This document shows, in pieces, positions 4,984 to 50,206 of a DNA stretch of 64,000 nt. Every line of letters starts with the position of its first letter. Positions within the stretch are counted from its first letter, which is position 1. This stretch comes from Nitrospira sp. (GTDB lineage: Bacteria; Nitrospirota; Nitrospiria; Nitrospirales; Nitrospiraceae): NCBI GenBank assembly GCA_029194675.1, contig JARFXP010000003.1, forward strand, positions 558,001 to 622,000, read 5' to 3'. The translations under genes were made by a program, and so were the position numbers. The notes under the pieces are model-generated. The model saw only the letters and a list, made by a program, of their open reading frames with translations, had not been told where the DNA came from and searched no databases.

Positions 4984-5493
4984 AGGCGGGTAACTCTGTT
5001 CTCAAGGGAGAGTACTCAACTATAGAAAATTGCCAAAGGTGTTTCAACGGCAAAGTCGAAGATCACGTGCCGTGATCTGAATGGAGCACCCGACGTTCAA
5101 GGGGGAGAGGTGGAGCGGGATGCGGAGGTGTTACGAGGCGAGAAGTTGCTGGTCATTCCGGTCGTCTCTATGACTTGGCGCCACGTTGCATCACGGATGA
5201 CTCAAGGAGGTGGAGGCCGACGGCTTGATGGACGAGAAGACTTCGGCGAGGTGCCTCCCTCACATCGAGCATAGGCTGATGTCGCTCAGGTGGTCGCTGG
5301 AGCCGGTGCTTGCGGCTATGCACAAATCGGCGATACAGCATGCTGCCGAGATCCGTCGTTCGACGAACGAGTCGCGGAAGCGTCAGTGAGTGAACTAAAT
5401 TACTCAGAAGTCAGTAATATTAGGCACCACTCGGATGCTTGAAGAATGATGGCACCAGCGCAGCCCTGTGAACGATCTCAGCCAACTGCCTGG
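4984..5493. other. intergenic region with no convincing gene
   Basis: About 500 bp between soxC and an IS630 relic. The AT-rich first part probably carries the soxCD promoter, reading leftward. One 53-codon frame on the + strand (ATG 5228 to TGA 5389; it contains PHIEHRLMSLRWSLEPVL) is possible, but it has no recognisable family and no convincing ribosome site. The rest looks like decayed sequence. Confidence 0.4.
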
Positions 5494-49245: not shown

Positions 49246-49336
49246 ATCATCTTCGCCCATTGACGATTCCGTATCCCCACAGTATTGTTCCCCCGCTTCA
49301 CGCGGCACGAACGATGAGACACCAAAGGAGCTTGGC

Positions 49337-50206
49337 ATGAAGAACGGTTTTTTTCGAGGACATGGGCTCGGCAATGACTATTTAGTAGTGGATCCCAAGG
49401 AAATGACCGTTAAATTGACTGCCAAGAACATCAAAACTATTTGCAACCGCAACTGGGGAGTAGGCAGTGACGGGATTTTAGCCTTGGTCCCCTCTAAGAA
49501 GGCCGATTTCGGACTGCGCATTTTCAACCCGGATGGCAGCGAGGCGGAAAAATCGGGGAACGGCCTCAGAATCTTTGCGCGCTATCTCCACGCGACCGGT
49601 AAAACGAAGAAGAAGCATTTCACAGTCGAGACCAGGGGTGGCCTCGTCACAATCGACCTGCACCTCGATCGGCTCGGGGATGCGAGCGCGGCAACCGTTG
49701 AGATGGGGATCGCCACGTTCAAACCGGATGCTCTCCCCTGTTCACTTGACGTGCCCGAGTTGATTCAGCAGCCGATCGAAGCAGCCGGACGAGCCCTGAC
49801 TTTTACCGGCGTGAGCGTCGGCAATCCCCATTGTATCGTCTTCAAGCCCGCCGGAGAATCCTGGTCCCGGGAAGAACTCGTGGCGTTGGGGCCGGCCCTA
49901 GAAAACCACGAGCTGTTTCCTAAACGGACGAACGTGCAGCTGGCTGTTCCAACCGGACCTAAGGAAATCTCCATTCTGATTTGGGAGCGTGGCGCAGGCG
50001 AGACGCAGGCCTCTGGCTCTTCATCCTGCGCTGCTGCCAGCGCCGCGGTACGCCTAGGACTCGTGAGGAGCCCCGTCACCGTGAAGATGCCGGGTGGGGT
50101 TCTGAATATCGATGTGGCTCCAGACTTCAGCCTCACCATGAAAGGGCCGGTGGCCGAAGTCGCGCGAGGCGCGCTGAGCCCCTCGTTCGTGCGCGGGCTC
50201 AAGTAG
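49337..50206 (+). CDS. dapF: diaminopimelate epimerase-like protein lacking both catalytic cysteines
   Basis: 289 aa from ATG 49337 (AAAGGAG upstream). DapF fold: FFRGHGLGNDYLVVD, NWGVGSDGILAL, NPDGSEAEKSGNGLRIF, VSVGNPHCIVF, and ERGAGETQASGSSSCAAA. DapF interconverts LL- and meso-diaminopimelate with two cysteines (E. coli Cys73 and Cys217). Here both positions are serine: Ser73 in KSGNG and Ser226 in ASGSS; the next Cys (231) is retained. The symbol marks the family only. It may be an altered epimerase or racemase, or another isomerase. Downstream of FAD copy 2. Confidence 0.78.
   Translation: MKNGFFRGHGLGNDYLVVDPKEMTVKLTAKNIKTICNRNWGVGSDGILALVPSKKADFGLRIFNPDGSEAEKSGNGLRIFARYLHATGKTKKKHFTVETRGGLVTIDLHLDRLGDASAATVEMGIATFKPDALPCSLDVPELIQQPIEAAGRALTFTGVSVGNPHCIVFKPAGESWSREELVALGPALENHELFPKRTNVQLAVPTGPKEISILIWERGAGETQASGSSSCAAASAAVRLGLVRSPVTVKMPGGVLNIDVAPDFSLTMKGPVAEVARGALSPSFVRGLK

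Follow-up and report, generated by a model that had tools for sequence, protein, structure and literature searches.

DapF, the DAP epimerase, is regarded as being defined by its two-cysteine mechanism. The catalytic cysteines sit directly before helices, the dipole of which is thought to help, and aziridino-DAP and similar DapF inhibitors act by bonding to them (PMC12039745). In the C. glutamicum enzyme, which has a mobile catalytic loop, the cysteine pair is redox-sensitive and its oxidation switches the enzyme off (PMC5296763). Cys-to-Ser mutants of HisR, a related two-cysteine racemase, lose most of their turnover (PMC11602996), i.e. serine is no innocent swap for cysteine.

Hydroxyl residues at catalytic cysteine positions have been described in (i) the Ser/Cys trans-4-hydroxyproline 2-epimerase Avi_0518 (B9JQV3), a protein of related fold that carries a natural serine at the first position and retains epimerisation, the serine being the acid/base on one face (PMC4113996), (ii) the Ser/Thr trans-3-hydroxyproline dehydratase B9K4G4, a member of the proline racemase superfamily that has a catalytic serine at the first position and neither cysteine left, and is not an epimerase (PMC4113996), (iii) aspartate/glutamate racemases with a Cys/Thr pair (EcL-DER, MMP0739), in which a natural hydroxyl residue replaces one cysteine (PMC8142540), and (iv) engineered H. 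influenzae DapF C73S and C217S (PDB 2Q9H, 2Q9J). No description of a natural Ser/Ser DapF was found in the open-access literature searched.

The gene described here, from Nitrospira sp. (GCA_029194675.1), lies in a window of 64,000 nucleotides (the whole stretch of DNA analysed) and encodes serine at both positions. Unlike its product, Avi_0518 keeps the second cysteine, acts on hydroxyproline and belongs to a different family (the proline racemase superfamily), while the second residue of B9K4G4, threonine, is non-catalytic and the reaction is a dehydration. EcL-DER and MMP0739 are likewise of a different family and keep one cysteine. The H. influenzae proteins share the fold and each carry serine at a single one of these positions, but they are laboratory single mutants and not a natural conserved double replacement.

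A DapF protein with serine at both catalytic positions

The dapF-type ORF encodes a protein of 289 aa (Table 1). Alignment with E. coli DapF bore out the sequence-only reading, which had equated Ser73 and Ser226 with the two catalytic cysteines. In profile searches the product passed the cut-off of the DapF equivalog TIGR00652 (114.65 bits) and scored 177.6 bits against PF01678. It fell short of the cut-offs for the CntK/HisR histidine racemases (NF033599; 11.1 bits versus a cut-off of 300), the bifunctional DapF/glutamate racemases (NF038284; 58.6 versus 350) and the PhzF-like isomerases (PF02567; 13.9 versus 27).

Table 1. Features of the Ser/Ser-type dapF locus (window coordinates).
Feature	Position	Strand	Basis
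Ser/Ser-type dapF	49337..50206	+	TIGR00652 223.5 bits; sole PF01678 (DAP_epimerase) gene of the source genome (G000)
Shine-Dalgarno-like AAAGGAG, six bases before ATG	49324..49330	+	direct sequence reading
Lys72 codon AAA	49550..49552	+	alignment counts: Lys in 92/92 Ser/Ser; Met/Phe in 67/67 Cys/Cys
Ser73 codon TCG, equivalent to E. coli catalytic Cys73, directly before helix	49553..49555	+	alignment; model helix 74-86
Ser226 codon TCT, equivalent to E. coli catalytic Cys217, directly before helix	50012..50014	+	alignment; model helix 227-239

An AlphaFold model built from 33 sequences (mean pLDDT 80, residues 125-140 being poorly modelled) has the DapF fold over its whole length, and both serines directly precede helices, as the cysteines of DapF do. 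The closest solved structure is P. aeruginosa DapF (Z 28.9, 263 residues aligned, rmsd 3.0). DapF enzymes head the structural ranking, level with O-ureidoserine racemase, and are followed by PhzF, proline racemase and hydroxyproline epimerase/dehydratase. The residues that we take to contact DAP (Asn11, Asn64, Asn157, Asn190, Glu208 and Arg209 in E. coli numbering) are all kept, as N13, N64, N163, N199, E217 and R218, in 31 of 31 aligned Ser/Ser sequences. The position of E. coli Gln44 is occupied by glycine in Ser/Ser sequences, as it is in 23 of 58 Cys/Cys sequences. The earlier view that the rest of the fold and the substrate motifs are intact thus agrees with both the model and the conserved contacts.

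The protein resembles canonical DapF (TIGR00652, PF01678) in fold, length, DAP contacts, equivalog score and the accompanying DapL/LysA/MurE pathway. It differs in having serine at both catalytic cysteines, Lys72 for Met/Gln and Ile for Cys79, and its gene lies outside the lysA operon. It is therefore a variant subfamily of DapF, to which profile scores, fold, contacts and pathway assign it, and not a canonical DapF, the two cysteines (Cys73, Cys217) being replaced.

Conservation and phylogeny of the Ser/Ser type

When one genome per species was scanned, 46 relatives came up: 44 loci of the Nitrospira type at 69-91% identity, among them one labelled Gemmatimonadetes, plus two Clostridia (about 37%). 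Every Nitrospira-type locus has EKSGNGLRI at the first site, and SGSS at the second wherever the second motif is present. The addition of further Nitrospirota genomes brought the totals to 92 full-length Ser/Ser loci (drawn from two collections, so that some genomes are possibly represented twice), 67 Cys/Cys loci and 5 Ser/Cys loci, which between them represent two genes. Outside Nitrospirota, sampling consisted of a single genome-contig scan with the query's own peptides, which detects close relatives only and barely touched other phyla. No close Ser/Ser relative was present in plasmid records (all below 39% identity among the matches listed), and a motif scan of viral contigs gave no match.

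Both serines were found in all 92 full-length members of the clade, the finished N. moscoviensis genome included. Ser73 is encoded by TCN in 77 cases and by AGY in 23 (counts that take in truncated loci and the Ser/Cys variants); the use of both serine codon families indicates that serine itself is kept. Pairwise dN/dS values against other Nitrospira dapF genes ranged from 0.03 to 0.13, and dapF is under purifying selection. These three observations rule out a sequencing error or a pseudogene and support the earlier argument that the paired change is not chance decay. Sequencing error and the presence of cysteines in close homologues, the two outcomes named as refuting, were both excluded by the alignment of DapF across Nitrospirota.

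In Nitrospira sp. CG24C (L038) two Ser/Ser copies lie about 1.35 kb apart (motifs at 5009 and 6357), reflecting either a tandem duplication or an assembly artefact, and two Ser/Ser copies are also present in a genome of family f14 (G028). In Nitrospira isolate YR-XLJ-1 (L043, 5001-5453) only the first 151 DapF residues match, possibly owing to a frameshift or an assembly break.

When the columns surrounding the two catalytic sites were left out of tree building, the Ser/Ser proteins formed one clade on one side of a single branch (SH-aLRT 99); the tree tool flagged long branches meeting, which leaves the clade's position in the tree less certain than its unity. The Ser/Cys pair forms a separate branch within a different DapF type. 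These two proteins come from sister genera of the same family (G060, G143; L080, L083) that are without the Ser/Ser gene; their operon-borne DapF combines Ser73 with the second cysteine and Phe72 and, judging from these sequences, is an independent natural Cys-to-Ser change. In the genomes read from this order DapF is Ser/Ser or Ser/Cys, never Cys/Cys.

Beyond the catalytic sites, clean or near-clean differences between the Ser/Ser and Cys/Cys types were observed at positions 60, 65, 72, 77, 79, 101 and 155. They include Lys72 (Table 1) and the isoleucine found at the Cys79 position in 92/92 Ser/Ser proteins. Catalysis is unlikely to have been taken over by another cysteine, as Cys36 alone is invariant in the clade and is found in most Cys/Cys enzymes too.

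Pathway requirement in the source genome

The source genome (5.2 Mb, 99.2% complete) encodes DapL (616.5 bits, cut-off 593.25), LysA (545 bits, cut-off 297.9) and a MurE that scores over its cut-off and has the DNPR motif, the mark of DAP-adding MurE. Whether the organism has a second dapF or uses the DapL route had been posed as a question. A PF01678 search of this genome found no second dapF, and DapL is indeed present, but it is no alternative: its product is LL-DAP, which still needs epimerisation, so that DapL does not bypass DapF. The only other DapF-superfamily gene found was a weak PF05544 match with PhzF-like motifs (by eye).

No DAP dehydrogenase was detected in the source genome by TIGR01921 or by a type-II dehydrogenase query, and N. 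moscoviensis and most other relatives searched gave no match to the type-II-like query; our searches thus revealed no dehydrogenase bypass in either of these two organisms. Three relatives have below-cut-off TIGR01921 matches resembling solved meso-DAP dehydrogenases, e.g. 3wb9. Six of the relatives searched have a type-II-like gene. Sporadic meso-DAP dehydrogenase-like genes occur in some relatives with Ser/Ser DapF (L119, L120, L121, G009:C5:264256, G123:C34:193100 and G129:C6:193389, the G129 match being split in two), and in some relatives a DAP dehydrogenase could bypass the epimerase step. Meso-DAP is required for lysine and the cell wall. The step from LL-DAP to meso-DAP is needed in the source genome, where DapL, LysA and MurE are present and no other known enzyme for it was detected, and the Ser/Ser protein is the only candidate.

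This requirement bears on the idea that the protein is an inactive DapF retained for binding to another protein, e.g. to an RppH-like RNA pyrophosphohydrolase, in the way that RppH is bound by the E. coli enzyme. The loss of both catalytic cysteines and the match of the model to solved RppH-DapF complexes would fit such a role. We nevertheless consider it very improbable, since the organism would have no epimerase at all, the substrate-contact residues are all kept, and the same hydroxyl residue replaces both cysteines in 92/92 sequences.

A search for glutamate racemase (PF01177, TIGR00067) in the source genome was also negative; elsewhere in the order there was one weak match, below cut-off, and several other Nitrospirota families are also without the enzyme. 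D-glutamate may come from a D-amino acid transaminase whose score narrowly passes the cut-off (G000:C3:410022-410822). In view of this transaminase, of relatives with Cys/Cys DapF that also have no MurI, and of Ser/Ser family f14, which has MurI, we find no support for Ser/Ser DapF as a D-glutamate source replacing MurI. A general removal of thiol racemases is not supported either, because the GCTHYP cysteine is present in those MurI sequences of f14 that were read; in one complete sequence the first-site cysteine is also kept (AACFT versus ACNT elsewhere).

Operon slot and gene neighbourhood

Cys-type relatives and the Ser/Cys genomes share the gene order lysA, dapF, dapA, dapB; argH lies upstream of the operon where the fetched stretch extends that far, and in some cases a gene for a small membrane protein separates lysA from dapF. 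In five Ser/Ser genomes (G000, N. moscoviensis, G137, G019 and G028) the order is lysA, dapA, dapB, and dapF is absent from its slot. No unrecognised enzyme was seen inserted in the lysA operon, the three genes being contiguous in the source genome. The Ser/Ser gene is found outside the operon: several of the Nitrospira loci read have it between a glyoxalase-like gene (by eye) and uvrC, and in the window a sensor kinase gene separates it from uvrC. Just upstream of dapF, the segment 44915-49245 contains a pair of nearly identical FAD monooxygenase genes (99% identity over their first 300 nt), with a HipA-like gene and a helix-turn-helix gene between them.

The plain reading of this arrangement is that the Ser/Ser enzyme appears to have displaced the operon Cys enzyme. 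Three genomes of family f11 (G006, G016, G025; L097/L098, L109/L108, L203/L202) carry two types of dapF, the Cys/Cys gene within the lysA operon and the Ser/Ser gene at another site, adjoining rsmB-like and rpe-like genes (names by eye). Such genomes may be in transition, or the Ser/Ser protein may have, or may once have had, another function beside the Cys/Cys copy.

These two-copy genomes would also suit a reading in which the protein is a racemase or isomerase derived from DapF that acts on another compound, in which case some unrecognised enzyme would supply meso-DAP. The block of group-specific positions listed above would suit it too, as would the precedent that, among proteins of the proline racemase fold, substitution to Ser/Thr or Cys/Thr accompanied a change of reaction. 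Several observations make this reading unlikely: the DAP-contact residues are all kept, the source genome is without any other epimerase candidate or dehydrogenase, the one other DapF-superfamily gene is PhzF-like by its motifs, the operon slot is empty where the Ser/Ser gene is alone, and no specialised pathway was seen among the neighbours of Ser/Ser dapF. The earlier proposal of a Ser-based epimerase or a different isomerase reaction is supported, the genome context favouring the epimerase.

Proposed mechanism and implications

We infer that the Ser/Ser protein epimerises DAP. The gene probably encodes a working DAP epimerase in which Ser73 and Ser226 would form the acid-base pair in place of thiol and thiolate. 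This reading draws on (i) the invariant Ser73, Ser226 and Lys72, (ii) the DapF fold and contacts, (iii) the presence of a single DapF-family gene, (iv) the pathway need and (v) the empty operon slot. LL-DAP from DapL would be converted by Ser/Ser DapF to meso-DAP, which would then serve LysA and MurE. Each serine hydroxyl, placed at a helix N-cap, would act as acid or base on its own face of the alpha-carbon. Lys72, beside Ser73 at a position corresponding to the mobile catalytic loop of C. glutamicum DapF, may lower the pKa of the serine or accept the proton itself.

A compatible mechanism with the same function seems rather doubtful: here Lys72 itself would be the base on one of the two faces, and Ser73 would just pass the proton on. 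Lys72 is found in 92/92 Ser/Ser and 0/67 Cys/Cys proteins, and no basic residue lies within 4 angstrom of the cysteines in Anabaena DapF (PMC12039745). Against it, residue 72 precedes the helix, its side chain may not reach the alpha-carbon, and the independent Ser/Cys variant has Phe72, so that serine at position 73 needs no Lys72.

On balance, we lean towards a thiol-free, cofactor-independent epimerase in which two opposed serines, with Lys72 assisting, would carry out the 1,1-proton transfer, a reaction for which DapF is held to require thiol and thiolate, and which would have taken the place of the Cys enzyme across most of the order as well as in family f14, Cys73 having also been lost independently in the two sister genera. 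Such a Ser/Ser DapF would extend the natural-serine precedent to an epimerase without cysteine at either site. We can only guess that selection favours the Ser/Ser pair where conditions are oxidising or nitrosating. If the proposed mechanism is true, a pair of hydroxyls moves the alpha-proton of an amino acid without a cofactor, and the enzyme would be predicted to resist both thiol oxidation and cysteine-directed inhibitors.
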